Of a DNA stretch of 64,000 nt, positions 3,001-64,000 are shown one piece after another. Both the position numbers and the translations under genes were made by a program. The stretch lies in assembly GCA_030427245.1 (NCBI GenBank), contig JAUHXA010000010.1, positions 89,208-153,207 of the forward strand. Direction: 5' to 3'. This DNA is from Bacteroidia bacterium. GTDB lineage: Bacteria; Bacteroidota; Bacteroidia; Chitinophagales; UBA2359. Within the stretch, counting starts at the first letter, position 1. Each line of letters begins with the position of its first letter. The notes under the pieces were generated by a model, which was not told the DNA's origin, did no database searches, and was given only the letters and a program-made list of their open reading frames with translations.

Positions 3001-6000
3001 CAAAACCAAACAGATGGAAATACGATTGCCAATCATACCATAGGAATCGGCGTTTATGGAAGTTCCGATTCGACAACTATTCACTTGAATAGTATTTACT
3101 GTAATACCCATACAGGAATCGACATTGGAACTGACAATCCTACTCCCAATTTACCATTTATCACAAAAGCAACTCCCATTCAAATAACAGGAACAGCCGA
3201 TACTAATACCACCATAGAACTCTTCCTCCACAACGACACAGCCTGCAATGGCGTGCCTTGTCAGGGAAAAACATTCATCGGCACAACCACCACAGACAAC
3301 GAAGGAAATTGGACAATAAACAGCAGCAACTTTATTCAACCCTTAACAGTAGGACAAAACATCACTGCAACAGCCACCTTCAATGGCAATACTTCTGAAT
3401 TTACCGAATGTCTGCAAGTTTGTCCAACGATTGAGCCGATTATCACTGGTGAAACCGCTTTTTGTGAATGGAATTTTACCACCTTAACCGTCAATGATTT
3501 TAGCGATTTTGTGGCAGAATATTTTTGGTCGACAGGCGAAAACAGCCAAGCAATTGAAGTGAGCGAAAGCGGCATTTACACCGTTACCGTTTCGGATGGC
3601 GGCATCTGTTCGGGAACGACAAGCATTGAAGTGATGCAAAACACCAATCCTATAGTAACCATTTTTTCACCCAATGGCACTCAGTTTTGTTTGGGCAGTT
3701 CGCTCACCTTATTTGTAGACGTTTTGAGTACTTCCAACATTGTTGCGTATGAGTGGTCGACAGGTGAAAGCGGGCAGAATATTGCAGTGAGCGAAGGTGG
3801 TATTTTCACCCTTACGGTCACAGATAACAACAATTGCAGCGCATCAACCTCGATTTTTATTGAAGAATACGAATCGCCTACACTTCTCATTGATGGAGAC
3901 TTAGAATTTTGTAGTGGTGAAAGTACCTTGCTATCTACAAATGAAACATATATTTCTTACTTGTGGTCAAATGGTTTGCAAACTCCTTCTATTGAAGTAA
4001 CAGCACAAGGTTTTTACAGCCTTATTGTAACGGACGAAAATGGGTGCAGTGCTGAAAAAGACGTTTTTGTGGTGGAAAACAACTTGCCAAGTGTGCTTAT
4101 CGAAGGCGAAAACATGCTTTGCGACCCCAGTATATTGTTGAACGCTTTTACCTCACAGGGCAGTGGCGAATATTTCTACAAATGGTCAACAGGCGATACG
4201 GAAAAAGAAATAATTGTGACCGAAACAGGCACTTATTCCGTTACAGTAAACGACTCTAAGGGCTGTTCTTCCATGGATGAACACCTTGTAGAAGCGTGTA
4301 TAGAAGACTGCGATGTAATCCCCTATTTTGTACTTCAAGACACTATTTGCACTTCCGTTTTTCTTACATTCAGTGAGCTCCTCACCGATAGCACTACTAC
4401 AGGAGGAATTTGGGAAATTACCTATCCAGATGGCACAATCGTTCAGCCCACAGATGATGTTTTGACATTTCCCCAAATTGGTATATACACTCTTGTCTAT
4501 TTTGTATCCTCCTCTATCTGCAATGACAGTCATACCGAAATCATTTACGCTGGTTTTCCAGACGAACCTTTTTGGTCTTTAGAGGGAGGCAACAATGATA
4601 TTTGTGAAACCAATATACCAATTGCAGTATTCCCTGACAATGAAGGAGGTTACTGGTGTTGTGAAGGTTTTGAAAACTGCAATGCCACCGATGAAAGCTG
4701 CTTTACAATTATTGACGACCAAATGTATTTTGCCCCAACTAGCAATTCCAATGCCATTGAATCCTATGAATTATCCTATGTGACCACCTTTGAAAATTGC
4801 AGCAGCCACAGCACCAAAACGGTGAATATATACGCCCAACCTTCTGCCCCCGAAGTAAGCACCTCTACTACTACTTTTTGCTTAGGTGAAATCACAGATG
4901 CTTTCATAAACATAACAGCCCCATCACAATTCCCCAACCAACTTTTCACCTTCAATATCTATGACGAAAGCGGAAACTTACTCATTGAAGGGGTAAAATT
5001 CAATGAGGATGTTGTAGATGTCACAGGCTTGTTGACTTCAATTGGCACGCACACTTTTTGGGTTAAGACTATAAATGGAGCTTGTGAAAGTGAGGCGGTG
5101 GATGTGAGTTTTTTGGTGGAAAGTTGTTCGAGTGAATTTACTGCAATAGACGACAACTACACCACCTGCACCAATACTCCGATCACTTTCACTCCTTTAG
5201 AAAACGATTTGGGAGAATGTTTAGAAATTATAGGACTCATGGTGAGTGGTGAAAACATTACCTTAGAGCAAATCGGTAATGAAATTACTTATACACCTGC
5301 AACAGATTTTTTAGGAACAATTGACTTTGAATACATTCTTACAGACTGTTTAGGACAAATAGATACCGCTTTGGTGACGATTGAAGTACTTGAAACAACT
5401 CTTATCGAAGCGGTGAATGACACCGTTTATATTTGGGTTTTAGCGAATCCATTGATAGACAATACATCCTATGTAGTTTCCTTCAATATATTGGAAAACG
5501 ACAAAGGGGATGGTATTAGATTGATAGACATTGACTATGATGATACATTTTTAGGAGAAAGTATGACTTTTTCAGAAAACGGAACCGTCGTTTTTCATCC
5601 AACAGAAGGAGAAGCTGGAATGAGTTTGATCAATTATACAATAGAAGGAAATGGATGTCAAAATTCCACAGTCACTTCTACGGGAACGATTCACCTACAC
5701 ATACATCCTCATCTTGAGTTTTTAGATGAAGCCAACAAAGCCAATCAGATGGTCGAAACAATTTTAGGGATGTGTGTACCCTACGAAAATGTCACCCTCA
5801 CAGGTACGTCTATGTCTTATTCACAAGTAACAGATAGTCACCTATCTGATGCGGAATCGCATGGTTTGGCGGACATGAACAACTTACCCTTTACAGATGG
5901 AATCATCCTCTCAACAGGAAACGCTTTAGATGGAATGTTAAGCCCAAATACTACAGGAAGTTTGGGGACAAACAATGGTTTGGATGGAGATGCGGATTTG

Positions 6001-9000
6001 ATGACTGATGAAACAGAAACCTTTGATGCGACTTCCTTAGAATTTGATTTTACAGCAATTTCGGAGTCGATTTCTTTCCGTTATTGGTTTGGTTCTGAAG
6101 AATATCCCGAATGGATAGAGAGCCAGTTCAAAGACAGAATGGCGATTTTTATCAGCGGAGGGCAGTTTACTGACCCACTCAATATTGCCACCTTAGCCGA
6201 TGGTACAGCAGTTGGAGTAGAGACGGTCAATCAAAACACAAACAGTGATTTTTTCCAATGGAACGAATACGGTGCATTGCCCCAATACGATGGTTTTACC
6301 ACTGCACTTGAAGCCATTGCAACAGGCTTGACATTGGGCGAAACCTACCACATCAAAATCGTTATTGCGGATGTGGGTGATGCAGAATACGATTCTGGTA
6401 TCTTCATTGAAGCCAATATGGATTTCAATGATTTAGAATTTGTGGTTAGTGATGATGCGACTATCAATTTAGGAGATACCTTTAAGTTGTCTGCCGAAGT
6501 ATTGAACACCACTGCAAATGTTACGTATGAATGGACTCCAACCCAAACCTTAGACAATCCAAATATTGCCAATCCCACTGCAAGTCCTACCGAAACTACG
6601 ACTTATAAAGTGTCTGCAACAATAGGCGATTGTTCATGGACAAGTTTTGTTACCATAACGGTAATTGACAACCCTGTTCCCTGTACTTCTGACAATGGCA
6701 TTATCTACGTCACAACAACGGAAGATAATGGAGACGATAACAATCCAATAGTGGGTTCTCTTCGTGCAGCTATTCTATGCGCCAATGCTGACCCCGATTT
6801 GGATTTGATTCACTTCAATATCACCAATCAAGCTGCTCCATACATCATTCAACCCACCCAAACTACGCTCCCTGCTTTGGAGGATGAAGGGATAGTGATA
6901 GATGCGACTACACAGCTTGATTGGGAAATGGGCAAAGTAGAATTAGATGGTAGTCGCTTAATTGAAGAAGGAGAAATAGGTTTAACAAATATCCGAGGTT
7001 TTCAAATCTATGTCGAACAGTGTGCGATTTACGGTTTTTATCTACACGATTTCACCAATCATGGTATAGTTAGTTATAGCCCATTCACACAAATTGGAGC
7101 AGCCAACAAAGGCAATGTTTTCAACCGCATTGAGTTTCCGATTACTATGGACGGTGCAGCTTTTAGCAAGATTCAAGGAAATTACATCGGTACAAATCCT
7201 TTGGGAACAGCATTTACTGGCGAAGGTAGCAATGGAGGAATTGGCATCAATAACAGTGAATTGGTTTGGATTGGAGGCGAAACCGAAGCAGAAGGAAATG
7301 TAATCAGCGGCAATACAAGCATTCTCAGCCTGAATAGTTCACCCAATTCCTTTGTCCAAAACAATCGAATCGGAACAGACATCACAGGTTCTTTTGTGAT
7401 TGGAAATCAAGGTCATTTGTTGATAGCAAGTGACAGTGTTTCTATTGTGAACAATCTCATTTCTGGAAACGAAACAAGTACAGCAACCGTTTGGATTCAA
7501 AATGCAACAGGTGGTATCATTGAAGGAAACAAATTTGGAACAGATATCACAGGCAATATGCTTTTTGGCAATTTGGCAAGAGGCATCACCATCGAAAATT
7601 CCTCCAATATTTCTATCGGTAGCCCTTCCTCCGATTTCCGACAAGTTTTTGCAGGAAACGGTACAGCCATTTTGTTGAAAACTTGTGACAACATCACCCT
7701 TCAAGGAAATGCCATCGGAACAGACATTGCTGGTATTCAGGATTTTGGGAACGATACACACGGATTGGTTATTGACAACTCTACCAATATTTTGGTGGGT
7801 GGCAGCATGGAAGGTGAAGGCAATTTGATTTCGGCAAATGGCTCCAATGGAGTAGTCATTACAGACAATTCGAGTGAGGTATATATTGAAGGAAACAAAA
7901 TCGGGACAGACATTACAGGCAAAGAAAATTTCGGAAACGGGCGAGAAGGAATCTTGATTGACAATGCCCAAAACATCTATATCGGCAGCAGCGAAGGAGG
8001 ACGTAATTTGATTTCAGGCAACTTAGAGGGCATCCGAATCGCCAATAAAAGCCAAAATATATTCATGGTCAACAACAAAGTTGGAACAGATATAGATGGT
8101 GAATTTGCGATTCCCAACCAAGAAGACGGAATAGACATAGACACGACGACCTTCAATTTGTTTGTGGGAGATGCAGAAACGGAAATAGGCAATCTAATCA
8201 GTGGAAATGGACAAGATGGCATTGACTTGCATGGTGCAATAGATGTCTATATAGGCTTCAATATCATCGGTTTAACCCAATCCCAAAACGAAATTTTACC
8301 AAACGAAGAATCAGGTATTGACTTAGAACTTAGCGAAAACATCACCATCGAACAAAATACATTGGCGGGGAATACAGCACATGGGCTTTTGGTACAAGGC
8401 GGTGCAACCTCTTTGAAGTGCAGCAACAATTTTATTGGCACTAACTCCCTGCAAGAAACAGGATTGGGCAACCAAAAAGAAGGTATTTTGGTCTTATACA
8501 CCGCTCCAAATACGGCAAATGAAAACAACGAAATCACCAACAATACCATTGCCTACAATGCTTTTTCCGCTATTCAAATCAACTTCGCCCAACATTTTCT
8601 AATAAGTGAAAACAGCATCTTCTGCAATGAAGGAGGAGGTATTTTGTTGCGAGATGGAGCGAACAACAATCACTCCTCCCCCATTATCACCAATGTTGCA
8701 ATCAACCAAATTGAAGGAACGGCAATGGCATCCGATGTGATAGAAGTTTTTGCTGAAGATGTGAGTTGTGCAGATTGTCAAGGTAAAATATACTTGGGAA
8801 CAACCATAGCAAATGACTTGGGTGATTGGGAATTAAACGCACCTTTCGACAGTAATTTGGTGCTGACCAATGGCATGAACATCACCGCCACTGCAATTAC
8901 CAATGAACACCACACTTCCGAATTTGCAGACTGTAAAGCAGTTGTAAATGTTCCCTGTGAAGGACTATCTGCGGGTGTTTTGTCCTTCATAGAGCCCTAT

Positions 9001-12000
9001 GTTTGCTTTGGAAATACAATAGGAGGTGAAATACCTATTGAAGCTTCTGATTTCACATTGAGAGAAGGAGACGTTTTGGGCTATGTATTGCAGGATGGAA
9101 GCGGCAATGTATTGGCTTACCGAACAGATAATGCCAATTTTGGTTTTGCAGATATTGAAGGACCTGGTGGAGCGTACAATACAGAATATTTTGTGATGGC
9201 AATTGCAGGGTTGGGCAATGGAAGTGGTGAAGTAGATTTGACGGGAGAATGTATTGACCGTAGTAATTCATTTGCAGTGGTCTTTTTAGAAGAAATAATC
9301 CTCAATACCAATGTCTTATGCCAAGACAATGAACAATTCCAAATTGAGGTGAGTTTGTCGGGAGGTTTACCCGATTATATTGACGATGCAACCTACCAAC
9401 TCACCGAATATGAAGGCGATATTTTTACTGGTCAAACCGTTATCGTTGGACCTTTCGATAGCCAAGAAATTATCGAATTGGAGGCGACTGATGGCAATGG
9501 ATGCTTCTCCTCCGTAGAAATTCAGAACTACTCTTTAGCCATTTTTGTAGGCGTGTTAGACATCACCAATGACACTATCATCATCAGCGAAGGCGAATCC
9601 GTTCAGTTGGTGGCACAAGTATTGGGCAGCAATGTGGTGAACTACAATTGGACACCAACCGAAGACCTGAGTTTCCCACAAATTCCAAGCGTCACCGCTA
9701 CTCCCGATACAAGCAGAACCTATACCGTAGAAGTGTTGATAAACAACAATTGTAGCTTGACAGCAAACATCACGATTTTGGTATTGCCGACTGCAAACGA
9801 CTGCGTAGATGCCATTCTGCCTTGTGACAACGAGCCGATTCAGTACAACAGCGGAGGAGAAGGCATTGAAGAGATTGCAGGAAAACCCGAACAAGGCTGT
9901 TTGGCAAATGGAGGCGAGCATTATTCAACTTGGGTCAGGCTTCAAATTGACAATTCTACTCCCGATAACGAAGCATTGACTTTCACCATTTCTCCCAATG
10001 ATGGACAAAAAGATTACGATTTTGTGTTGTACAAATCAGCAGATTGCAGTAGTTTGGGTGCGCCTATTCGCTGCTCTTTTGCAGATTCTGACCAAACGGG
10101 CTTGAACCTCGAAGATACCGACACCGAAGACCAAGACAATGGTTTTGCGAGTTATGTAGAAGTCAATGGCGGGGAAGTGTATTATCTGATGATAGACAAT
10201 TTTAGCGGTAATTTTCAAGGCTTTACCCTCGAATGGACCAACCCAAATGTGGCGTTCAATTGCGAACCGACTCCTGAATGTTTGGCAGAAGGAGGTGAAT
10301 TGTCATTGAACAAACAAAACTACTGCGACGAATCCAATATCGTGGCTACCTTGATTGGAGAAAACACCGATTTTCTAACCACCTATTTGTTCTTGACCGA
10401 AGACAGCATCATTGTTTCCAATCCCGAAATTGGGGTTTACTGTTTGGTAGCGCTCAATTATCCACCTGATGTAGTTGTGGACGATTACACCACTATTGAA
10501 GAAATCGAAGAAGCCGTTGCAGCAGGGGTTTGCATGGACTTGAGCAACATTGTGTGTTTTGAAGTCTTAGAAGTTCCTCCACCACCGACTTTTGATTCCA
10601 AACATTGCGACCACGAAATTTTGCATGGAGATGTTATTGCCTTGGCAGATGCCGATATTCGTTGGTATGCCGCAGATACGCTTTTCACCATCGGAAACAA
10701 TGTGCATCTCGAAACAGCGGGTATTTATCACGTCACTCAAACGCTGAACGATTGTGAAAGTGAGGTTTTGGAGATTGAAGTGACCGAAGCGGATTTGGTA
10801 TGTTTGGGAGATTGCCCCGATAATTTGGTGCAAAATTTCAGCTTTGAAGAATACGACAACTGCCCTGAATTTGCAGGAGACATCAGAGAAGCCGACTTCT
10901 GGCGTTCACCCATTGGCACAGCCGAAAGAGCCGATTACTTCAATGACTGCAATCCGACAACCAACAATTACGGTACGCCTCAAAACATAGTTGGAACGCA
11001 AACTGCTTTTGAAGGCGTTTCTTATGCTGGTTTGAAGGCTTACAACCAAGCCAACAACGATTTGATTAGTCGAGAGTACATTCAAACACAGTTAAATTCT
11101 ACTTTGATTGAAGGGCAAAGCTATTGTGTTTCTATGCAAGTGAGCCTTGCCGAAAACAGCCAATTTGCGATAGACAATTTGGGAATCTATTTTTCTGAAA
11201 ATCAAATAATGGGCAGTGACATTGAAGATATTTTAGAGCCTCAAATCGAACACCAAGGTTTTTTGGAAGACACAGAAAATTGGATGGAAGTCAAAGGCAC
11301 ATTCACCGCTACATCTGGGCTGCAATATTTAGCAATCGGCAATTTCGCATTGAACAGCGGTGTGAAAGAGGTCAATTCAACCGGCAATGGAGAGGCGTAT
11401 TACTACATTGACTTCATAGATATACGTCCGACCAATGAGATAGAAAGTTTGCTGGCCTTCGATGAGAATGGAGAACAACTCAATACCGAAAGCAATACCA
11501 TTGTGATTTGCCCTGACGAAACCATTCGCTTGGAAGCGACTACAACAACGACCAATTTTTCTTGTGATTTGGGATGGATTGAAGCCCTAACAGACACCAT
11601 TCACCAAATGAGCTACACCATTCAACCTACACAAGATACGACTGTTTACCACTTTTGGGTCAGCAATGGCTTGTGTGAAGTGGCAGATAGTTTGGTGGTA
11701 ATTTTGGGAGATGTGGGAAGTGATGGAGATTGTGCATTGTCGGTGTGTCCACAGATACAAGAACTGACCAGTTTGCTGCAAAACTTGGAATTGAGTATTC
11801 CTTATCAAATGAATGAAATAGAAGTAGATTTGACGCAAGAAGTCGGCGGTCAGCTGCTGCAATTGGCACAAACAATTGAAGGATTTGACGAAGGTTTGTT
11901 GGCTGGTTTTGAAGTGAATATGGTGGCAGGAAGTTTGCAGACCGAGATGAATCCAGCATATCTTGAATTCCATCCCAATCGCATTGTTTACAACAATTCT

Positions 12001-52908: not shown

Positions 52909-54444
52909 ATGCAACACGAAACAATCCTTATTTTAGATTTTGGCGCACAATACCGTCAATTGATTGCCAGAAGAGTGCGAGAAGCGAAAGTCTATTGTGA
53001 AGTCCTTCCTTGGAGTGCTTCCCTTGAAGAAATCCAGTCTAAAAATCCCAAAGGAATCATTTTTACGGGTGGGCCCAGTGTCGTCTCTGCAAAGGATGCG
53101 CCGATTGTCGACAAAGGTATTTTCGATTTGGGTATCCCGATATTTGGCATCTGCTACGGTGTGCAAGTGATAGGCCACTTGTTGGGTGGAAAAGTGGAAC
53201 GGTCGGCCGAAAGAGAATACGGCAAAAAACCCCTTCACGTCACCTCCAATCACCCATTACTGCAAGGAGTCGAAAAAGAAACTACTTGTTGGATGAGTCA
53301 TACCTACTATGTGAGTGAACCTCCAAAGGGCTTCAAAACGATTGCTTCAACGGATACTTGTCCTGTGGGTGCAATCGCCAACGATGTCCAGAAAATTTAT
53401 GGGGTTCAGTTTCACCCCGAAGTCGTGCATACTCCTTATGGTTCTCAAATCCTTCAAAACTTCCTCTACCATGTTTGTGGCTGCAAAGGCGACTGGATCA
53501 TGGGCGATTTTGCCAAAGAAAAAATTGCAGCTTTGCGGGCGAAAATTGGGGATAAGAAAGTCTTGTGTGGTTTGTCGGGTGGTGTAGATTCTTCGGTGGC
53601 AGCGGCATTGATTCATCATGCGGTGGGCGAACAATTGACCTGCATTTTTGTGGATCATGGGCTATTGAGGAAAGATGAAGGGGATGAAGTAGAGGAGTTT
53701 TTCAAGGGTGAATTCAAACTCAAATTGATTAGAGTCAATGCTCAAGAACGCTTTTTGTCGAAATTGGCGGGCATAAGCGACCCCGAAAAGAAGCGCAAAA
53801 TCATCGGGGAAGAGTTTATTCGAGTATTTGAGGAGGAGGCCAAAAAGATTGGAAAGGTGGACTTTTTGGTGCAAGGCACTATCTATGCCGACATCATCGA
53901 AAGCGGTAGCAAGCATGGTGCGACTATCAAGAGTCATCACAATGTGGGAGGCTTGCCCGACCATGTAGATTTTGAGGAAATCATCGAGCCTTTAGAAGAT
54001 TTATTCAAAGATGAAGTGCGTGCAGTCGGTCGTGCTATTGGCTTACCCGATTACCTCACCGAGCGTCAGCCTTTTCCTGGGCCTGGTCTTGCGATTCGGG
54101 TCATCGGCGACATTACAGAAGAAAAGCTAGCGATTCTGAGAGAAGCCGACTATATCTATCGAAGCGAAATCGCCAAAGCAGGCTGGGATAAGCATATTTG
54201 GCAGTATTTTGCAGTTTATACAGGCATCCGAAGTGTAGGGGTGATGGGAGACGAACGCACCTATGATACAGCAATAGCCTTGCGGGGAGTGACGAGCACG
54301 GATGGCATGACTGCCGATTGGGCAAGAATCCCGTATGAGGTTTTGGAGCGCATTTCTACAAGGATTGTGAATGAGGTGCCTCATGTGAATCGGGTGGTGT
54401 ATGACATTACTTCAAAACCTCCTGGAACGATCGAGTGGGAGTAA
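52909..54444 (+). CDS. guaA: GMP synthase (glutamine-hydrolysing)
   Basis: A protein of 511 residues, normal length. The N-terminal glutamine amidotransferase has the catalytic Cys in [10 protein letters not shown] and the His/Glu pair in [10 protein letters not shown]. The ATP pyrophosphatase domain has the P-loop [15 protein letters not shown]. The dimerisation domain follows, with [13 protein letters not shown] and the C-terminal KPPGTIEWE. It converts XMP to GMP. It is the last core gene before the cassette array. Confidence 0.97.
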
Positions 54445-54601
54445 AATTTCGAGTCAGTGTAGTGGTAAACCTCAAAGTTAGAGAACTAGGTAAACTCAAA
54501 GTTTCAAAGCGCTATTTGGAACTCAAGGGAGCTAAAAGTGGCTTCAATAACTTGAGCAGCCCTTTGGATAAGCTGAACATATAAGGATTATCACGATGTT
54601 G

Positions 54602-54807
54602 TTACGCAACTCATATTGTGAATTATAATAAATTATTACGCAACTCATATGGTGTATTGATTTAAATTGTTACGCAAGACATATGGTTTATTTATTTATG
54701 CGAAATATTGATACGCTTATTTTTTGTACATAGCAAATTTTATTTTGCATAGATGGAATAGTTTTTTTACTTTTGGATATTGTTGAAATATACGCAATGA
54801 GTTGCGT
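54602..54807 (+). promoter_or_regulatory. Direct repeats of ACGCAACTCAT: candidate attI-like site
   Basis: ACGCAACTCAT occurs at 54604 and 54639, a variant ACGCAAGACAT at 54672, and the reverse complement ATGAGTTGCGT at 54797-54807, ten bases before the first cassette junction (54818/54819). Forward copies are spaced 35 and 33 bases. Established knowledge: attI sites carry direct repeats bound by the integron integrase next to the insertion point. Calling this an attI is inference; the repeats could equally bind another regulator. Confidence 0.4.
54744..54775 (+). promoter_or_regulatory. Candidate cassette promoter (Pc-like)
   Basis: TTTG at 54744-54747 and TACTTTTG at 54768-54775, separated by 20 bases, match the full Bacteroidota promoter consensus (TTTG, 19-20 bases, TAnnTTTG). 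It points into the array and lies about 43 bases before its first base. Confidence 0.6.
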
Positions 54808-54818
54808 TATTGAAGATG

Positions 54819-55160
54819 TTGGGCAGAAATCCCTCTCCTTCGTCGAGCGATTTCTGCCCAACGGAGCGAGCGATATTGTTACGATATTCTCGTTCCGTTA
54901 AGCTTTAGGCATGTCCTAAAGCTGGGTCGTGCCTTCTTTACGCTTTGGGAAAGGTTCAGTCGTTGGGCACGGACTACGACTGTCGAATTTTAGAATTCGC
55001 CTTCCATAAGGCAGAAGGCACTATCCGCCAACACTGTGTACACGCAATAGCACCCACTATTGCAGGTTCACAGTTACTTATATTTTTTAAAGGTACGTAC
55101 CTTAGCAGCGAGCTTTCGCTACACGTGGTCGTGGGTGCGACTGCGTGTACACTCGCTCCG
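54819..55160 (+). repeat. ORF-less repeat cassette R1
   Basis: A unit of 342 bp. It starts TTGGGC, and a 14-base inverted repeat (GTTGGGCAGAAATC, its complement ending at 54862) closes a short 5' hairpin. GCCCAAC at 54856-54862 opens the attC-like part. This ends at GTTCTCG (55160-55166), making it about 311 nt. Its outermost arms AACGGAGCGAG and CTCGCTCCGTT are perfect complements. Inner hairpins include AGCTTTAGG/CCTAAAGCT, GCAATAG/CTATTGC and a long GTGTACACGC/GCGTGTACAC pairing. Confidence 0.85.
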
Positions 55161-55269
55161 TTCTCGGCAAGCAGAAAAAAACAAGAAAACCAAACAAAAA
55201 CGTATCTTACGAGAAAATTACATCATCAAAAAAATTAACAAATTGAAGCAAAAAAGGGATAGATATGAA

Positions 55270-56817
55270 ATGCATAAATATTGGGGGAAAAAGCCCTCAA
55301 ATAATCTTAAATGCTTGATTGAGAAGTATTCAAAGGAAGGAGATACTGTATTTGACCCATTTTCAGGTTATGGAGTGTTTTGTTGCGAAGCGTTCATACT
55401 CAATAGAAACATAATATCTAATGACTTGAATCCTATTGCAAATTTTCTAAACGAGCAACTTTTAGAGAAAGATGTAAACCTCACGATTTTAGAAAAGCAA
55501 TGGAAGAAAATAAAGTCAGAATTTGAACTATATAATAATAAATGGTTTGAATGGAATTTAGAGGGCAATTCCGTTCAGTTAATCTCAATTCTAAGGAATA
55601 AAAATGATATTCCAATCAAAGCCAAGTATAAATGTAATGGTGATAGAAAGGCAACGGAAATAGACTTGCCCCCAAACAAGATTAAGGAGTATTTAGAATA
55701 TGAAAATAAATTTGAGATTACAGATTGGTATCCCCAACATAAACTAATTCAAAACTCTCGTATTTCTGCAAAAGAAGGGATGACAGTAGCAGACCTTTTT
55801 ACAAAAAGAACGCTTGCTTGCCATGCAAGATTATTAGCCCTAATCGAAAAGTATTCGAAGGGAAAGGAAAAAGATATATTAAAGGTTGCATTTACTGCAA
55901 ATTTAGCGAACTGTTCAAAACTTGTTCCTCCCATAAAAAGTAGAGGGGCAATGGCTCCAGGTGCATGGATGACAGGCTTTTACGTAGGAGAAACATATTT
56001 AGAAAATAACGTTCTGAGGTATTTTGAAAATCGACTTTCAAAAGTTATAAAAGGAAAAAGAGATTATTTGAATCAACTTGGCAATAATGGTGAATTCAAT
56101 TTTAATCCAACCCAATACAATAATAGTTTTACAATTCTTAATGACGATGCAAAATCTTTAAGTGTAAAATCAGAAACTGTTGATTATGTTTTTACGGACC
56201 CACCTTATGGAGACGCCGTTCCATACTTTGAACAAAGTATAATATGGAATTCATGGATGAATTTTGTTCCTCAATACGAAAGCGAAATAGTTATTTCAGA
56301 CAGTAAACAACGACAAAAAAACACTTCAAATTTTGAAGAAGATATTAACATGGCTTTTTCAGAGATAAGACGAGTCTTAAAACCAAAAAAATATTTCTCA
56401 CTTACTTATCATTCACTATCAGGTTTAGAATGGAAAGCTATAACTAACGCATGTATTAGAAATGGATTTGAGTTAGTAGATTTTCAATGGTTAGTTCAAA
56501 AATCATTTACACCAAGACAACTAAACAGACTAAAAAGTATAAAAGGCGATGTTTTAGTAACCTTTAAAAAGTGTGAACTACCAAAAGAATTAAACCTTGC
56601 ACCCGATAGCGAAGTGGTACAAAAATTTGTCAACTCTATTACGAGTTGGTTAAAAAAAGAAATATTAGATACGAATGAAATATTTCTCCGAATTATGAAA
56701 ATGGTTTTTTCAGATAAAATTTTAATTGGAGAAGTAGATTTACTCAAACTTCTAACAGAGAACTTTGAGTTTTCTGAAACACAAAAATGGTTATTGTATG
56801 ACGAACTTACAGTTTAG
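55270..56817 (+). CDS. DNA methyltransferase of a cassette-borne type II R-M system
   Basis: A protein of 515 residues from the ATG at 55270. A TTG at 55243 is a plausible alternative because the residues just before the ATG (RDRYE) look coding. The frame stays open back into R1, but that part is repeat sequence. MHKYWGKKP opens the protein, followed by SAM motif I VFDPFSGYG (about 27-35) and, 275 residues later, the catalytic motif TDPPYGD (about 309-315). This is of the DPPY type that methylates N6-adenine or N4-cytosine. The long stretch between the two would hold target recognition. It shares its cassette with the next gene, which it overlaps by 20 bases. Confidence 0.85.
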   Translation: MHKYWGKKPSNNLKCLIEKYSKEGDTVFDPFSGYGVFCCEAFILNRNIISNDLNPIANFLNEQLLEKDVNLTILEKQWKKIKSEFELYNNKWFEWNLEGNSVQLISILRNKNDIPIKAKYKCNGDRKATEIDLPPNKIKEYLEYENKFEITDWYPQHKLIQNSRISAKEGMTVADLFTKRTLACHARLLALIEKYSKGKEKDILKVAFTANLANCSKLVPPIKSRGAMAPGAWMTGFYVGETYLENNVLRYFENRLSKVIKGKRDYLNQLGNNGEFNFNPTQYNNSFTILNDDAKSLSVKSETVDYVFTDPPYGDAVPYFEQSIIWNSWMNFVPQYESEIVISDSKQRQKNTSNFEEDINMAFSEIRRVLKPKKYFSLTYHSLSGLEWKAITNACIRNGFELVDFQWLVQKSFTPRQLNRLKSIKGDVLVTFKKCELPKELNLAPDSEVVQKFVNSITSWLKKEILDTNEIFLRIMKMVFSDKILIGEVDLLKLLTENFEFSETQKWLLYDELTV

Positions 56818-57907
56818 TGAACTTGATACAGCGTTCAGAAATAATGATTTTCCGACTATCGAAAATGATATTAGAGGCATACGATTTCTTAAATTGAGAA
56901 GTATGTCCCGAAAAGCAACAATGGAGGAATTTTGCGAATTGCATAATATCAATTTAGAGGGCATCAACTCAAGAGGTTATTTTCCTCATGTTTTTGAGTT
57001 AGCGAATGTAGATGATGCCATGTTAAATAATTTTATCAACGAAAAGTATCAAGAAGAGCGAGCAAACAGAATCAATAATCAAGATTATTTAGTTGACCAA
57101 TTAAACAGGCTACAGCATTTCGATTGGGGAGGTTCTTTTGGGAACAGCTTAGAGAAAAACATAGTGAATAACTATGTGAAGAAAATTCAATCCTTTGAAA
57201 GAATAAATGAAGAAATCGAAGGAAATCTTCTTAGTAGTTTAAGAGGATATACCTTAAACTCATGGTACAACCATTGGACATCAATAATAATTGAAGACTT
57301 ATTTAAAGACAATGACGCGGTACTTCCTACTGTTGGGTTAGTTAAGAAGATTGATTTTTTCATAAACGATATTCCGTTCGATTTGAAAGTGACATATTTC
57401 CCTGAGCAACTTTTAAAGGATAAATTAAAGGCTAACGGATATGGAAATGAATTGACAATGCTGAAAAGAGTTTGCAGAGAGTTAGAAATTTATATTCCTA
57501 CCGACTTAAAAGATAAAGCACTAAAGCTGCATCTTTATAACAAGGTTTCAGAAGACCAAAGAGCGGAAGCGAGGGATTTTATTGCAGAACTCAAAGAGCA
57601 AAAAAGAATAATTATCCAAGAAGCAGAAGATAATCCTGCCGAATTAAAAAAGTGGTTTTACGAAAATCAAGGTGAAGCAAGATTTGATGCATCCAATCGT
57701 TTTTTCTTGGTTTTGACAGATGAAACAGATATGTCAAATAGTTGGAAATTAAAACGAAACGTTGTATTTCTAAGGGAAAACATCAACGAACATTTAGATA
57801 ATTTATCAGTGGATATGACAAGTCTTAAAACTGAATTCTATTGGCACAAAGACCAACAAACATATAATTGCAAATCCGATATTCTATTCCTAAAATATAG
57901 TGAATAA
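56798..57907 (+). CDS. Probable type II restriction endonuclease (PD-(D/E)xK-like)
   Basis: A protein of 369 residues from the ATG at 56798, which overlaps the methyltransferase stop by 20 bases; an in-frame ATG at 56765 would overlap more. The best nuclease signature is KIDFFINDIPFDLKVTYFP: Asp near 186 and D-x-K near 195-197, with hydrophobic strands around them, as in PD-(D/E)xK enzymes. I do not recognise a specific subfamily or its target sequence. The call rests on that motif and on coupling to a DPPY methyltransferase in one cassette. Confidence 0.7.
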   Translation: MTNLQFSELDTAFRNNDFPTIENDIRGIRFLKLRSMSRKATMEEFCELHNINLEGINSRGYFPHVFELANVDDAMLNNFINEKYQEERANRINNQDYLVDQLNRLQHFDWGGSFGNSLEKNIVNNYVKKIQSFERINEEIEGNLLSSLRGYTLNSWYNHWTSIIIEDLFKDNDAVLPTVGLVKKIDFFINDIPFDLKVTYFPEQLLKDKLKANGYGNELTMLKRVCRELEIYIPTDLKDKALKLHLYNKVSEDQRAEARDFIAELKEQKRIIIQEAEDNPAELKKWFYENQGEARFDASNRFFLVLTDETDMSNSWKLKRNVVFLRENINEHLDNLSVDMTSLKTEFYWHKDQQTYNCKSDILFLKYSE

Positions 57908-57922
57908 AAGAAGAAAGCCAGC

Positions 57923-57989
57923 CGAGAACAAAGGCTAAAACGGCAATATGGGCTATGCGCCCATATTGCGTTTAGCCGAGCCGTTGTGC
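57923..57989 (+). other. attC site of the restriction-modification cassette
   Basis: CGAGAAC (57923) to GTTGTGC (57983-57989), 67 nt. The stem is GGCTAAA...TTTAGCC with an inner ATATGGGC/GCCCATAT hairpin. The unequal spacers next to the core boxes give the asymmetry usual in attC. CGAGAAC complements the cassette's first bases, GTTCTCG at 55160. Confidence 0.85.
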
Positions 57990-58010
57990 GTCATATGAGA
58001 AAAACTGCAA

Positions 58011-59078
58011 ATGAATAATAAATTGAATTTGATTTACCTAATATTTTTCTCGATTCTGAACTTTTCTTGCGTTGAAAAGGAAGAAGCCGATAAAGAAAAA
58101 AACAAAACTGAATTGGTAAGTAAGTCAGACTCTGACACTTTAAAATTTACTAATGGAATTAATTCAATTTTCCAAGATAGCAAAGGGAATTATTGGTACG
58201 GAAGTCGTCAAGAAGGAGTAGCTATTTATGACGGACAAACCTATAAGTATTTTACAACTAATGAGGGGTTGCCAGATAATCAGATTCGTTCAATAAAGGA
58301 AGATAACAATGGGAACATTTGGTTTGAAACAGCAAATGGAATTAGTAGCTATGACGGAAAGAAAATCACAAATCATACTATAATTGGAAATGCAAACTCG
58401 CAAAATGAGTGGACGAAAACTTCTAATGACCTTTGGTTTAGTGCAAGAAATAAGGAAGGAGTATATAAATATGACGGTCAAAGATTGTATTATTTAGCAT
58501 TTCCCAATCCAAAAGTCATTAACCCCAATAATTTATATTCCGTGACAAGTATTTCAGAAGGGAAAAATAATATACTTTGGTTTGGTACTTACGCAGGTGT
58601 TTTTGGCTATAATGGAAGTGACTTTATAATTATCAATGATGAAACTCTCGAACTTGATATTGAAACAGAACCACTACATATTCGAAGCATTTTTGAAGAC
58701 TCAAAAGGCAGACTATGGATGGGAAATAATGGAATTGGCGTATTATTGAAAGACGCTGACACAATTATTAACTTTTCTGAAAAAAATAATCTAATTCACC
58801 CAACAAGTTCAAGAAGAGGAGATAAGTCACAACCAGGTACACTTGAACACGTTTTTGCGATTGAAGAAGATGGAGAAGGAAATATTTGGTTTGGAGATAG
58901 AGATTCAGGAGTTTGGAAATATGATGGTGATACTATTAAGAATTACACCGACAGTTTAGGACAATCAAATGATTTTGTTCATAGTATATACAAGGATAAC
59001 AATGATGCTTTATGGTTTATACTGACTAACGGTAATGTATTCAAATTCAATGGAAAAACATTTAATAAGAAATATTAG
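58011..59078 (+). CDS. Lipoprotein with two-component-regulator-propeller repeats
   Basis: A protein of 355 residues. The signal segment ends in a lipobox (L-N-F-S-C20). From about residue 45 there are beta-propeller blades of the Reg_prop type: repeated D-x-x-G-N-x-W-x-G/F with YDG a few residues later (for example DSKGNYWYGS, DNNGNIWFET, DSKGRLWMGN, DGEGNIWFGD). In Bacteroidota such propellers form the sensor part of hybrid two-component systems; here the blades stand alone on a lipoprotein. Its start lies 27 bases into the cassette. It directly follows the R-M cassette, with no repeat unit between them. Confidence 0.8.
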   Translation: MNNKLNLIYLIFFSILNFSCVEKEEADKEKNKTELVSKSDSDTLKFTNGINSIFQDSKGNYWYGSRQEGVAIYDGQTYKYFTTNEGLPDNQIRSIKEDNNGNIWFETANGISSYDGKKITNHTIIGNANSQNEWTKTSNDLWFSARNKEGVYKYDGQRLYYLAFPNPKVINPNNLYSVTSISEGKNNILWFGTYAGVFGYNGSDFIIINDETLELDIETEPLHIRSIFEDSKGRLWMGNNGIGVLLKDADTIINFSEKNNLIHPTSSRRGDKSQPGTLEHVFAIEEDGEGNIWFGDRDSGVWKYDGDTIKNYTDSLGQSNDFVHSIYKDNNDALWFILTNGNVFKFNGKTFNKKY

Positions 59079-59089
59079 AAAATACGAAC

Positions 59090-59155
59090 GCACAACAATG
59101 TATAAGCGATAATGCTCCCTAAACGGTCGCACTCCGCTTATACAAACCGTTGGGC
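59090..59155 (+). other. attC site of the propeller cassette
   Basis: GCACAAC (59090-59096) to GTTGGGC (59149-59155), 66 nt, stem TGTATAAGCG/CGCTTATACA. GCACAAC complements the cassette start GTTGTGC at 57983. Confidence 0.85.
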
Positions 59156-59492
59156 AGAAATCCCTCTCCTTCGTCGAGCGATTTCTGCCCAACGGAGCGA
59201 GCGATATTATTACGATATTCTCGTTCCGTTAAGCTTTAGGCATGTCCTAAAGCTGGGTCGTGCCTTCTTTACGCTTTGGGAAAGGTTCAGTCGTTGGGCA
59301 CGGACTACGACTGTTGAATTTTAGAATTCGCCTTCCATAAGGCAGAAGGCACTATCCGCCAACACTGTGTACACGCAATAGCACCCACCATTGCAGGTTC
59401 ACAGTTACTTACATTTTTTTAAAGGTACGTACCTTAGCAGCGAGCTTTCGCTACACGTGGTCGTGGGTGCGACTGCGTGTACACTCGCTCCG
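59150..59492 (+). repeat. ORF-less repeat cassette R2
   Basis: A unit of 343 bp, differing from R1 at only a few bases. attC-like part 59187-59498. The 60-70 codon frames that open in it recur in other copies and are not credible genes. Confidence 0.85.
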
Positions 59493-59518
59493 TTGGGCAC
59501 CATTAGAAAAAAAGAAAA

Positions 59519-60391
59519 ATGCGATTTCCAATAAAAGGAAAAGATATAATTGAATTATCAATCGAAGAATGTGAAATAAATGCAATACTCGAATCATTCG
59601 AAGAATTGTTCAATAAAGAATTTGAATCAATTGAATTTTATAGCAGAAATCATATTGAAAACAAAGACTATGTAAGAAAAAAAATATATTACAATGAATC
59701 TGGTTTTATTCATCGAATTGAATTTTATAAGCCCTCTTCTGGAAAACCAAATGCAATAACATACTTTGAAAAATCAAAGTGTGAAATTATTTCCAAAAAA
59801 CAACTTGAATATGGTTTTGCAGAAGAAATATGGAAATTTAATAGCAACGGAAACATAATAAGTTTTCAAAGTGAATATGGAAGCAATTATTTATTTAAAT
59901 ATGATGAGAATGAAAATTTGGAAAGTGTAAGTGAAGGGTTCAAATTTAAATGGAAAAATGGCGGTATATCGGAATTGATTAATGAAACAGATAACTCCCT
60001 AATCAAGAAAATCAGTAGAAAGAAACAAGAAGTAATAGTAGAGTCTCCCAGTAGAAAGAATAAAAATATATCTGGAATTACAACCTATAAATATGACGAC
60101 TTTGGAAGATTAATTAGAATTGAGTCTACTTCAGGAAAAAGGTTAACAGAAATTAATTACGAACTAAAAAATGGTTTAAAATTACAAACCTCAATCAGTT
60201 CCTTCAACCAAGAACAAACTTCTTTCTCAAGGATAATTGAAAAGTCTTTAACAGAAAATAAGGTAGAAGTAGAATTTCAATTTCAACAAAGTAAAAATAG
60301 TCCAATTATGAAATCAAAAATAGTGCAAAATAAAAGAAAAAAAACGGTGCCCAACAAAGCATACAACGGCAATCAGCCCTATGCGGGCTGA
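59519..60391 (+). CDS. YD-repeat-like protein of unknown function
   Basis: A protein of 290 residues with no signal peptide. It contains imperfect beta repeats of the YD/RHS kind (YNESGFIHRIEF, YLFKYDENENLESV, TYKYDDFGRLIRIES). The start is 27 bases inside the cassette. The last 15 or so residues are encoded by the attC site itself: the reading frame passes through GCCCAAC and stops in the attC hairpin, so the C-terminus is set by the recombination site. Function not recognised. Confidence 0.65.
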   Translation: MRFPIKGKDIIELSIEECEINAILESFEELFNKEFESIEFYSRNHIENKDYVRKKIYYNESGFIHRIEFYKPSSGKPNAITYFEKSKCEIISKKQLEYGFAEEIWKFNSNGNIISFQSEYGSNYLFKYDENENLESVSEGFKFKWKNGGISELINETDNSLIKKISRKKQEVIVESPSRKNKNISGITTYKYDDFGRLIRIESTSGKRLTEINYELKNGLKLQTSISSFNQEQTSFSRIIEKSLTENKVEVEFQFQQSKNSPIMKSKIVQNKRKKTVPNKAYNGNQPYAG

Positions 60392-60416
60392 CTGCGTGTA
60401 TGCAAAACCGTTGGGC
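60349..60416 (+). other. attC site of the YD cassette
   Basis: GCCCAAC (60349-60355) to GTTGGGC (60410-60416), 68 nt, stems GCATAC/GTATGC and CAGCCC/GGGCTG. Complements the cassette start GTTGGGC at 59492. Confidence 0.85.
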
Positions 60417-60753
60417 AGAAATCCCTCTCCTTCGTCGAGCGATTTCTGCCCAACGGAGCGAGCGATATTATTACGATATTCTCGTTCCGTTAAGCTTTAG
60501 GCATGTCCTAAAGCTGGGTCGTGCCTTCTTTACGCTTTGGGAAAGGTTCAGTCGTTGGGCACGGACTACGACTGTTGAATTTTAGAATTCGCCTTCCATA
60601 AGGCAGAAGGCACTATCCGCCAACACTGTGTACACGCAATAGCACCCACCATTGCAGGTTCACAGTTACTTACATTTTTTTAAAGGTACGTACCTTAGCA
60701 GCGAGCTTTCGCTACACGTGGTCGTGGGTGCGACTGCGTGTACACTCGCTCCG
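60411..60753 (+). repeat. ORF-less repeat cassette R3
   Basis: A unit of 343 bp, essentially identical to R2. attC-like part 60448-60759, ending at the next cassette's GTTAGGT. Confidence 0.85.
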
Positions 60754-60772
60754 TTAGGTGCAATAAATAGAA

Positions 60773-61387
60773 ATGGCCGACATAATAAGTTCACTTAAAG
60801 CTGGAATGACAATTTACAAAGTCATAGAATGGTTTTTCTCAGATGTATATGATGAAATCGGAAAAGTGTATATAGATATGGCAGAAGCTCATTTTTCGTC
60901 TGCCGAACAAGCATTCAAAGCATATAAAAAGAGTAAGAAACCCGAAACTGAAATTAGAGTTTTACTAAGTCACCTCAGGGATGCATATAATATTTATGAC
61001 AAAGTAGTTAGGAGAACAGTAACTGAAACCCAAATGATTTTTTGGTCATCAACTTCAAAACCTCATTGTAGCAATAAAAACACTCAATTAGTAGTGGATT
61101 TAGCTATTATGATTTCTTTCATTTACAGAGATTTGGGAGAAATTAGTAATGCAGAGGACTGGAGCAAATTAGCATTAAGAAGTTTTGAATATCATCAAGA
61201 GAATTATGAACCAGATTATTATGAACTGATTAAAATAAATTCTAAATACGGATACACAAAAAGAAGGCGAACATCAAGATACGAATATACTACCTATTGC
61301 TATGTTTCGGACGAAGGAAAGGAATTTGCTCGAAATCGGTTGCGAACTCAAAAAAAAGAATTACAAAGAATTTTATCAGGAGAATGA
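60773..61387 (+). CDS. Hypothetical cassette protein, 204 residues
   Basis: Start ATG 20 bases into the cassette. The N-terminal 70 residues are helical and rich in Ala/Lys (MADIISSLKAGMTIYKVIEW, then AEAHFSSAEQAFKAYKK), and two further helical regions follow (about 60-85 and 105-145). The pattern is somewhat TPR-like, without a clear consensus. The C-terminus is strongly basic (YTKRRRTSRY, RNRLRTQKKELQ). No membrane segment. Not recognised. Confidence 0.6.
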   Translation: MADIISSLKAGMTIYKVIEWFFSDVYDEIGKVYIDMAEAHFSSAEQAFKAYKKSKKPETEIRVLLSHLRDAYNIYDKVVRRTVTETQMIFWSSTSKPHCSNKNTQLVVDLAIMISFIYRDLGEISNAEDWSKLALRSFEYHQENYEPDYYELIKINSKYGYTKRRRTSRYEYTTYCYVSDEGKEFARNRLRTQKKELQRILSGE

Positions 61388-61399
61388 ATTAAATAAAGC

Positions 61400-61465
61400 A
61401 CCTAACAATGGCTAAAACGACAAGTGCCGCTAAACGCGTCACCTGCATTTAGCCTGACGTTGGGC
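61400..61465 (+). other. attC site of the 204-residue cassette
   Basis: ACCTAAC (61400-61406) to GTTGGGC (61459-61465), 66 nt, stem GGCTAAA/TTTAGCC. Exact complement of the cassette start GTTAGGT at 60753. Confidence 0.9.
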
Positions 61466-61803
61466 AGAAATCCCTCTCCTTCGTCGAGCGATTTCTGCCC
61501 AACGGAGCGAGCGATATTGTTACGATATTCTCGTTCCGTTAAGCTTTAGGCATGTCCTAAAGCTGGGTCGTGCCTTCTTTACGCTTTGGGAAAGGTTCAG
61601 TCGTTGGGCACGGACAACGACTGTTGAATTTTAGAATTCGCCTTCCATAAGGCAGAAGGCACTATCCGCCAACACTGTGTACACGCAATAGCACCCACCA
61701 TTGCAGGTTCACAGTTACTTACATTTTTTTTAAAGGTACGTACCTTAGCAGCGAGCTTTCGCTACACGTGGTCGTGGGTGCGACTGCGTGTACACTCGCT
61801 CCG
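61460..61803 (+). repeat. ORF-less repeat cassette R4
   Basis: A unit of 344 bp. It differs from R2/R3 in the T-run length near 61730, GATATTG for GATATTA and GGACAACG for GGACTACG. attC-like part 61497-61809. Confidence 0.85.
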
Positions 61804-61838
61804 TTCACAACAATCAGAAAAAACAAAAAAAATCAACA

Positions 61839-62864
61839 ATGGATATTTTTCAGGGAAATCGAAAGTTAGAAGAAGCAATATTTACAGGATTGGATTACGC
61901 ATTATGGTCACGACATGACCTCAATGATGCCTTTACGCCATTTATGATGTTGCATAAAAACGGAAATTCAAAACTGGTTAGAGTTGTAGCAGATGGAAAT
62001 CCAATGGAATCGTTTGAAAGTATGTTGAAAAAGGACAATGAGCAATACGACCAAATTGTAATGTGTTTAGAAGGTAGAGTGCCACATAATGGAGAAAAAC
62101 AAGATGCAGTAATTGTAAAAGGGTTTGATACAAGTCAAGAAAATGGATTAATGTTTATGCAGAGATTTAGAGGTAAAGAATCGGGGCAACCATTTCAAAA
62201 ATTGGGTAATCCAGCGTTAGTCGGCAACAAAGAAATTCTACCTGTACCTTTGGTCAATAGAGATTCAAACAAAACAATAGAAGAACCTTATTTGTCAGGA
62301 ATTACTTTAAAGGAAGAATCAGGAGAAATAAGTAGAGAAATATTTGCAGGACATCAAAACTCATCATATTTAGCTAATCAATTATTTAATGCAGTATTGA
62401 ATATCCTCGATAAAAATGAACCAAATTTTTCGGGCAAATTGAGTTTCAATTTTGTTCCTAATACCATAAAATTGGGAGCATTTACGGAGTTCATCTTTAA
62501 TCAACTTGTAAGTGATTTAAAAAATAATCCTACTGTAAAAAATTGGGAAGATACTAATGGAAAGAGTTTAAAAATTGAATTGAAGTACAATGAAAATGAA
62601 GTTGTACAAGAAAAGAAAGTAGAGCCGAAAAAGAATGAAAAATCAAAATCTGATAAACCAAATTATTCTTCATTAACTAATGATGAACTTAATAAAGAAT
62701 ATTATAGACTGATTTCTATACCAAATGCAAGGACAAATATCTCTGCTTTGACAGCGATGACTGAATTAATGGCTGAATACCAAAAAAGGGGGATAGAAAT
62801 GCCGAATAGTAAGAAAAAACAAAACCCCAAGAAAGATGATAAGCCTTGGTGGAAATTTTGGTAA
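61839..62864 (+). CDS. Hypothetical cassette protein, 341 residues
   Basis: Start at the ATG 35 bases into the cassette; an in-frame ATG at 61788 lies inside R4 and is not credible. Residues 1-230 form one domain without a recognised motif (MDIFQGNRKLEEAIFTGLDY, then MCLEGRVPHNGEKQDAVIVK, then FMQRFRG). A Lys/Glu-rich linker (about 255-285) leads to a helical C-terminal piece ending in a basic run and WWKFW. No signal peptide. Function unknown. Confidence 0.6.
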   Translation: MDIFQGNRKLEEAIFTGLDYALWSRHDLNDAFTPFMMLHKNGNSKLVRVVADGNPMESFESMLKKDNEQYDQIVMCLEGRVPHNGEKQDAVIVKGFDTSQENGLMFMQRFRGKESGQPFQKLGNPALVGNKEILPVPLVNRDSNKTIEEPYLSGITLKEESGEISREIFAGHQNSSYLANQLFNAVLNILDKNEPNFSGKLSFNFVPNTIKLGAFTEFIFNQLVSDLKNNPTVKNWEDTNGKSLKIELKYNENEVVQEKKVEPKKNEKSKSDKPNYSSLTNDELNKEYYRLISIPNARTNISALTAMTELMAEYQKRGIEMPNSKKKQNPKKDDKPWWKFW

Positions 62865-62882
62865 AATGAAAAAGAAGACTGT

Positions 62883-62949
62883 TGTGAACAAAGGCTAAAA
62901 TGTTCATGTGGGCTATGCGCCCACACGCCATTTAGCCAGACCGTTGGGC
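62883..62949 (+). other. attC site of the 341-residue cassette
   Basis: TGTGAAC (62883-62889) to GTTGGGC (62943-62949), 67 nt, stems GGCTAAA/TTTAGCC and GTGGGC/GCCCAC. Complements the cassette start GTTCACA at 61803. Confidence 0.88.
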
Positions 62950-63285
62950 AGAAATCCCTCTCCTTCGTCGAGCGATTTCTGCCCAACGGAGCGAGCGATA
63001 TTGTTACGATATTCTCGTTCCGTTAAGCTTTAGGCATGTCCTAAAGCTGGGTCGTGCCTTCTTTACGCTTTGGGAAAGGTTCAGTCGTTGGGCACGGACT
63101 ACGACTGTTGAATTTTAGAATTCGCCTTCCATAAGGCAGAAGGCACTATCCGCCAACACTGTGTACACGCAATAGCACCCACTATTGCAGGTTCACAGTT
63201 ACTTACATTTTTTAAAGGTACGTACCTTAGCAGCGAGCTTTCGCTACACGTGGTCGTGGGTGCGACTGCGTGTACACTCGCTCCG
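62944..63285 (+). repeat. ORF-less repeat cassette R5
   Basis: A unit of 342 bp. attC-like part 62981-63291, ending at GTTAGCT. It shares the shorter T-run and CACTATTGC with R1. Confidence 0.85.
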
Positions 63286-63317
63286 TTAGCTTCCATTAAA
63301 AAATAAATAACAGCGAA

Positions 63318-63878
63318 TTGAAGATTGTCAATGAAAATAAAATATTCACCTTGATATCGGTTGATAAAACAACAGAGGGGAATTCTGTCAAATTAGAACT
63401 AAATGGAAATCCTTTTTTACCACGAGAATTTAATGCTAAAAAATACTTCAAATACCAGTTAGTAATTTACGGTCTGAAAAATGAAAATAAATTCATAAAA
63501 GAGATTAGCGAATTCATTGAAAGTTATATTGATATCGATGAATTAGAAAATAAAAAATTAGATTTTTGGAGCGATGGCTACCATATTGGTGAACTTGAAT
63601 TCGATGGATATGATGAAATCGTTGAACCATATGAAAAAGAAGATTGGATTAAAGAACACAAGGAACTAATCGAATATCATCATCGAAATTCTGATAACAG
63701 CATAAAAGATTTTTATCGGCGGAGAAAGTTTATTGACAACTTGGAAGTTTTCTTAAACAAAGAGATTGGAAATTATAAAACCAAGAATGAATTCTTAACA
63801 GATAAACAAAAAGCTGTTAAGACGAATAAGAAAGCAATCGAATTAGCTAATAAAATCCAATATCTAATCGAACAATAA
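63318..63878 (+). CDS. Hypothetical protein of the last, incomplete cassette
   Basis: About 186 residues from TTG 63318; no ATG fits the frame near the 5' end. Acidic, helical, cytoplasmic-looking (ISEFIESYIDIDELENKK, then WSDGYHIGELEFDGYDE). Not recognised. The cassette begins GTTAGCT, so its attC should begin with AGCTAAC, but no such box appears before the window ends. The 3' end of the cassette therefore seems lost or replaced. Confidence 0.6.
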   Translation: MKIVNENKIFTLISVDKTTEGNSVKLELNGNPFLPREFNAKKYFKYQLVIYGLKNENKFIKEISEFIESYIDIDELENKKLDFWSDGYHIGELEFDGYDEIVEPYEKEDWIKEHKELIEYHHRNSDNSIKDFYRRRKFIDNLEVFLNKEIGNYKTKNEFLTDKQKAVKTNKKAIELANKIQYLIEQ

Positions 63879-63910
63879 GTACCTCTTCAAATTTAATGGG
63901 CTAAAATGAT

Positions 63911-63918
63911 TATTTTTG
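63911..63918 (+). promoter_or_regulatory. -7 box (TATTTTTG) before the last partial gene
   Basis: TAnnTTTG match 25 bases before the ATG at 63943. No -33 element identified. Confidence 0.35.
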
Positions 63919-63942
63919 CTTAAATACTAAATAATTTAAATT

Positions 63943-64000
63943 CAATGCGTTATATAGATTTAGATAGTGTATCTTTAGAGATGCTAAGAGAGATGTGCAA
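63943..64000 (+). CDS. Partial CDS at the window end, possibly an IS630-like transposase N-terminus
   Basis: Nineteen codons are visible (MRYIDLDSVSLEMLREMC...). The start resembles the N-termini of IS630-type transposases, which begin with a helix-turn-helix, but this is too short to be sure. An insertion here would explain the missing attC of the last cassette. Confidence 0.3.

Follow-up and report, generated by a model that had tools for sequence, protein, structure and literature searches.

The window analysed here, a stretch of 64,000 nucleotides from a Bacteroidia bacterium, is the end of contig C39, the last base of the one being the last base of the other. It closes with an integron-type platform that, to judge from its sequence, was probably assembled by a tyrosine recombinase without the IntI-specific (I2) insertion, for which the genome holds an intact gene at another place. 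This reading draws on what is observed of the anatomy of the array, the missing insertion, the structured and covarying sites, the association between sites and integrases across genomes, and the breakpoints at G|TT.

A gene at 52909-54444, which we take from its sequence to be guaA, lies upstream of the array. It is followed, all on the plus strand, by the degraded 3' end of a patch-less (that is, I2-less) integrase gene with internal deletions (54446..54584, placed by blastn against the integrase region of contig C141), an attI region of about 230 bp (54585..54818), and cassettes up to the contig end. With gene cassettes numbered and a non-coding unit denoted U, the order of units is U, 1, 2, U, 3, U, 4, U, 5, U, 6, and G|TT stands at every junction listed. 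The U units lie at 54819..55160 (U1, with its own R'' at 54856-54862), 59150..59492 (U2), 60411..60753 (U3), 61460..61803 (U4) and 62944..63285 (U5). Cassette 1 (55161..57983; GTT from 55160, R'' from 57923, attC 57923..57989) carries a type II-like DNA methyltransferase ORF (55270-56817; MTase_II, E 1.1e-154) and a second ORF (56798-57907). Cassette 2 (57984..59149; GTT 57983, R'' 59090, attC 59090..59155) carries a propeller-repeat protein ORF (58011-59078), and cassette 3 (59493..60410; GTT 59492, R'' 60349, attC 60349..60416) a YD/RHS-repeat-like ORF (59519-60391). The ORFs of cassette 4 (60754..61459; GTT 60753, R'' 61400, attC 61400..61465; ORF 60773-61387) and cassette 5 (61804..62943; GTT 61803, R'' 62883, attC 62883..62949; ORF ending at 62864) are of unknown type. 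Cassette 6 (63286..64000; ORF 63318-63878) is cut by the contig end and shows no R'' before it. The first-pass annotation of this DNA had noticed the gene cassettes, but did not recognise the 343-bp spacers between them as cassettes, and overlooked the attI region and the integrase remnant.

That annotation reported five cassettes in which the starting 7-mer is the reverse complement of the 7-mer that opens the 3' hairpin (R''). All five pairs are exact in the window sequence, and the hairpins measure 66-68 nt as described when both 7-mers are counted. Its further contention, that the matching is hard to put down to chance, is borne out by the 16 cassettes of the arrays on C39 (n = 5), C141 (n = 7) and C114 (n = 4), counted without the U units and the degenerate contig C137: 13 of the 16 match exactly, while 200,000 shuffled pairings gave a mean of 1.25 and a maximum of 8. 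The three mismatches are a one-base slip in a C141 cassette, a C114 cassette whose start lacks some bases, and a C114 cassette whose start is that of another cassette. A match longer than 7 nt between start and R'' is not special to the window array, as class 1 and classical controls match over 8-12 nt.

The contents of the other arrays may be described briefly. One of the 16 cassettes, on the minus strand of C141 (L022, ~1960-1150), is AT-rich and has no evident gene on the cassette strand. Another on the same strand (~6990-4620) holds several genes in a row, which is unusual for a cassette; Dps-like and TetR-like proteins are recognised among them by eye. On C114 (L023), the last U is followed at ~8300-8660 by an N-terminal fragment of another tyrosine recombinase, which recurs in more decayed form about 1.8 kb farther on (~10110-10400), and similar repeats are present in C137. 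The minus strand of C137 (L024, ~10600-7490) bears a third, diverged attI-like region and degenerate cassettes, one of which ends in a 315-nt form of the U attC and another in a form of 130 nt, with no integrase visible beside this attI-like region.

The attI region of the window is near-identical to the region 3' of the intact integrase on C141, and the two sequences diverge after GTT. An attI beside an integrase gene is found on C141, and its copy in the window. Comparison of the window remnant with the C141 integrase region by blastn gives a 39-nt block at 85% identity and a second block that runs through the integrase stop codon into attI. The window attI contains repeated TTACGCAACTCATAT motifs, and an inverted ATGAGTTGCGTT adjoins the crossover point.

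The inner parts of ten short-type attC sites, taken without the 7-mers, form a covarying hairpin in which 91.3% of the cells are paired (24-36% in a slid control) and 11 of 16 pairs are changed on both sides. The ten sites were chosen by a stem criterion on the outer 16 nt, and the covariation of the outer stem is therefore partly built in; the apical helix, however, lies mostly beyond the selected part, and six of its seven pairs are changed on both sides. Searched with a covariance model of this inner part, 118 kb yield 17 sites, including the ten used for training. Sixteen fall within the arrays read, and the remaining one lies farther along C114 (L023:15851). The model missed a 91-nt site on C141, and a comparison with Rfam gave nothing above chance. 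An attC with complementary R''/R' and a conserved fold is present, as expected of an integron platform.

A longer type of attC, about 131 nt with its cores, is found in the relatives. In 28 such sites all 16 pairs covary, and the paired share of cells is 89.0% (35-42% in the slid control). Pairing was a selection criterion for the outer 15 nt, though not for the six inner pairs. A model built without the cores gives 67 matches in 1.15 Mb, of which 28 are the training sites; 59 of the 67 are downstream of the integrase on its strand, and eight are upstream, six of these in one Maribacter record. Of the 21 untrained sites that have another site before them, 15 agree with the earlier junction over at least 7 nt, compared with 5.6% over all pairings (two matches without AAC and those first in a row were set aside). 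The six upstream matches (L125, Maribacter halichondriae, minus strand 732-6694) are on the other strand from the integrase, and four of them are about 182 nt long. The source genome has no long-type match at E 1e-5, its attC sites being of the short type, and the short-type model gives only seven matches in 95 relative loci.

An intact recombinase of 469 aa adjoins the C141 array. It scores 224.8 bits against the IntI model TIGR02249, under the cut-off of 265, and the search for intI in the rest of the genome, which the first-pass annotation had proposed, found nothing that passes this cut-off. Its conclusion that an integron integrase built the array therefore stands in part: a cassette array, attC-type hairpins, G|TT junctions and movement of whole units are all supported, but the enzyme has to be understood in a wider sense. 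Between two catalytic motifs, 57-63 aa are found in all 69 relatives in which the spacing could be measured (among the best 80 of 581 relative loci), in contrast to 100 aa in IntI1, and the insertion is kept in 10 of 10 classical controls. When the C141 recombinase is aligned to the IntI4 structure (2a3v), a gap falls where the insertion around patch III with the I2 helix sits. Many members of the patch-less family have an N-terminal extension.

The tree places patch-less integrases and IntI in one group against XerC/D (100/100), and the assignment of the C141-type recombinase to XerC/D was rejected on this ground; the 16 Xer rows of the outgroup are of XerC/D type only. Within the group, IntI falls in a branch with patch-less rows from Bacillota, Spirochaetota, Nitrospirota and an archaeal MAG (94/99), which suggests that IntI may have arisen among patch-less integrases, although a topology that unites all patch-less rows also survives the test (p-AU 0.256). 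The C141-type recombinase is not an IntI by membership; the system is integron-like in anatomy.

A protein search with this recombinase returned at least 8000 homologues. The best 80 of 581 loci of the genome scan are mostly of Bacteroidota, the others carrying labels such as Nitrospirae, Spirochaetes and Bacillota. The set includes many MAGs, and mis-binning is possible in some cases. Chained sites are found downstream of the integrase in 27 of these 80 loci (52 sites in 349 kb), compared with one on each strand in 683 kb upstream. The reverse strand of the downstream parts has 21 chained sites in 12 loci, as would be expected because the site criterion is mirror-symmetric. Of the loci with 3.5 kb or more of downstream sequence (n = 35), 24 have a site that is chained or recognised by the model, and neither method found one in the other 11; no convincing array is seen in long flanks such as those of L046 and L053-L055. 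In 45 of the 80 the locus sequence stops no more than 3.5 kb beyond the integrase on the downstream side, and in 12 it stops that soon upstream, as repeats would cause.

Patch-less integrases stand directly at arrays in many genera. A Rufibacter locus, for example, has a run of eight consecutive sites, of which six or more match the junction that immediately precedes them. A cassette common to a Runella and a Belliella locus (676 columns, 69%) has its start at G|TT and its end no more than one base from R'', while the attC interiors and the neighbours differ. Genomes G036 and G031 have in common a cassette (93.7% over 1048 bp) whose ORF is, by eye, of restriction type; it comes directly after the integrase in the former and third in the latter, and begins with G|TTAGGTGCAAGCG in both. 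The attI regions of two Pontibacter records part from each other no more than five bases from G|TT, and the same is true of two Nitrospirae records. Breakpoints away from G|TT had been named beforehand as evidence that would speak against an integron; the Runella/Belliella cassette and the related attI regions break at G|TT.

Among the 295 genomes sampled from the class, 205 have long-type attC (E 1e-5 or better), 147 have a patch-less integrase (E 1e-45 or better) and one has a classical IntI. The sole classical IntI (G035:C40:3592-4530) is in a genome without long-type attC at the threshold. Long attC and patch-less integrase occur together in 136 genomes and are both missing from 79, with an odds ratio of 14.2, uncorrected for kinship; 69 genomes have long attC but no integrase at the threshold, and 11 the reverse. 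Forty of 150 listed long-type sites share a contig with a placed integrase. Of these, 26 are on the same strand, downstream and within 30 kb, seven are on the opposite strand, upstream and within 30 kb, and another seven are farther away. In G385, G419 and G551 (family f105) and in G038, long attC and integrase are on opposite strands with the attC upstream, which is the classical integron arrangement, though a second integrase may lie nearby. Classical IntI exceeds the cut-off in 84 of the 296 genomes of the phylum sample; of the 85 with any IntI match, one is of the same order and the rest are labelled other classes of the phylum. At the phylum's classical-IntI loci with clear arrays, the array is divergent from intI.

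By the mechanism proposed, one strand of a circular cassette would fold into the attC hairpin, and the recombinase would cut after the G of GTT and join the cassette to attI or to another attC. The local integrase gene being degraded, the C141 integrase would serve the window attI in trans. Without I2, the folded site would have to be recognised otherwise, possibly by the N-terminal HARP-like extension (cf. PF07443, SMARCAL1 HARP). Several points speak against this explanation: the reported need for I2 in cassette capture (PMC7790495), the relative loci in which neither method found a site, the class genomes that have long attC or the integrase but not both at the thresholds, the missing long-type match in the source genome together with the few short-type matches in relative loci, and the seven sites upstream on the opposite strand.

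That the window platform itself lacks an intact integrase also counts against this explanation, and lends some weight to the view that the arrays are inert relics, or were spread by homologous recombination between repeats, and that nothing moves now. The degenerate sites on C137 and C114, and a C114 cassette that resembles a product of recombination between repeats, point the same way. This view is nonetheless unlikely, considering the intact integrase with a nearly identical attI in the genome, the five of five intact core pairs in the window, and the 98-100% identity of the U copies. It is less likely still that a classical IntI, acting in trans or in the past, built the arrays, with the patch-less recombinase as a bystander, for example a resolvase of chromosome dimers. 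IntI is described as the sole enzyme shown to do so in the portion of the source available (PMC7790495), and it is common elsewhere in the phylum; in this genome, however, none exceeds the cut-off, the class has one in 295 genomes against long attC in 205, separate XerC/D-like genes are present in the source genome, and it is the patch-less integrases that are directly at the arrays in many genera.

The U unit (342-344 bp, with no plausible gene) has five copies in the window and twelve full copies, 98-100% identical, on C39, C141 and C114, with two diverged or partial ones on C137. The copies differ in nine columns, and variants are common to different contigs. The folding energies of the two strands are -80 and -87 kcal/mol, against -41 and -43 for shuffles, and the layout is GTTGGGCAGAAATC-loop-GATTTCTGCCCAAC, then GGAGCGAG ... 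CTCGCTCC, then GTT. U is best read as a cassette whose body would be almost wholly an oversized attC, and it may have multiplied because it recombines well. The number of near-identical copies, often one after each gene cassette, would also suit a small transposable element that targets attC sites. Such an element is improbable, as U is bounded by G|TT on both sides, carries a matched R'' and L''/L' arms of its own, is the first unit at attI in the window, and shows no target-site duplication by eye; moreover, units of the same layout and unrelated sequence occur in three copies in G027 (core GTAAC instead of GTTAC) and once in a Saprospiraceae array. Further hairpin-opening units are at cassette junctions in L132 (2673) and L104 (4741, from the integrase end), the latter cut by the contig end.

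According to the available text of PMC9668308, integrons are searched for with two profiles together, one for tyrosine recombinases and one specific to IntI, and in the part of the IntegronFinder 2 paper at hand (PMC9024848) Bacteroidetes proper have one complete integron, in Salinibacter; an excerpt of a review lists Bacteroidota among the integron-bearing phyla (PMC8618304). I2 is called necessary for cassette capture and is missing from Xer proteins (PMC7790495, in part), and its origin is presented by Escudero et al. 2016 (PMC4792948, in excerpt) as a chicken-and-egg paradox, of I2 before attC or attC before I2. This question becomes directly testable with a family that has attC arrays but lacks I2. 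If the family works as proposed above, integron-type arrays, until now nearly unseen, would be present in most of the genomes sampled from a major class of bacteria, and recombinases would have a second means of reading a DNA hairpin. We tentatively propose, as a possibility on the weaker side, that integrons predate I2, that a widespread I2-less family captures gene cassettes at folded attC sites and recognises the hairpin by an N-terminal HARP-like module, that IntI is a later branch that gained I2, and that most Bacteroidia integrons have gone uncounted because searches ask for the domain acquired last.

The system resembles sedentary chromosomal integrons with IntI (2a3v; loci L180-L189) in the attI that adjoins the integrase, the co-oriented cassette arrays, the hairpin sites with R''/R' cores and the G|TT junctions. 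It differs from them in the spacing of 57-63 aa instead of 100 aa and in the N-terminal extension of many members. The patch-less integrases and their arrays are mostly co-directional (26 of 33 sites within 30 kb), whereas in classical controls with clear arrays (L181, L182, L183, L187) the integrase is divergent from it. As in CALIN, there are attC arrays and no IntI over the model cut-off, but here a dedicated integrase is present, without the domain that detection requires in the accessible text of PMC9668308 and PMC9024848. Unlike the Xer recombinases (XerC/D, archaeal XerA), the patch-less integrase adjoins cassette arrays, and it groups with IntI against XerC/D (100/100). In the available text of Smyshlyaev et al. 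2021 (PMC8138268), the insertion is called essential for integron function among 'integron-like' tyrosine recombinases and no arrays are tied to members without it, whereas in the present loci patch-less members adjoin such arrays.
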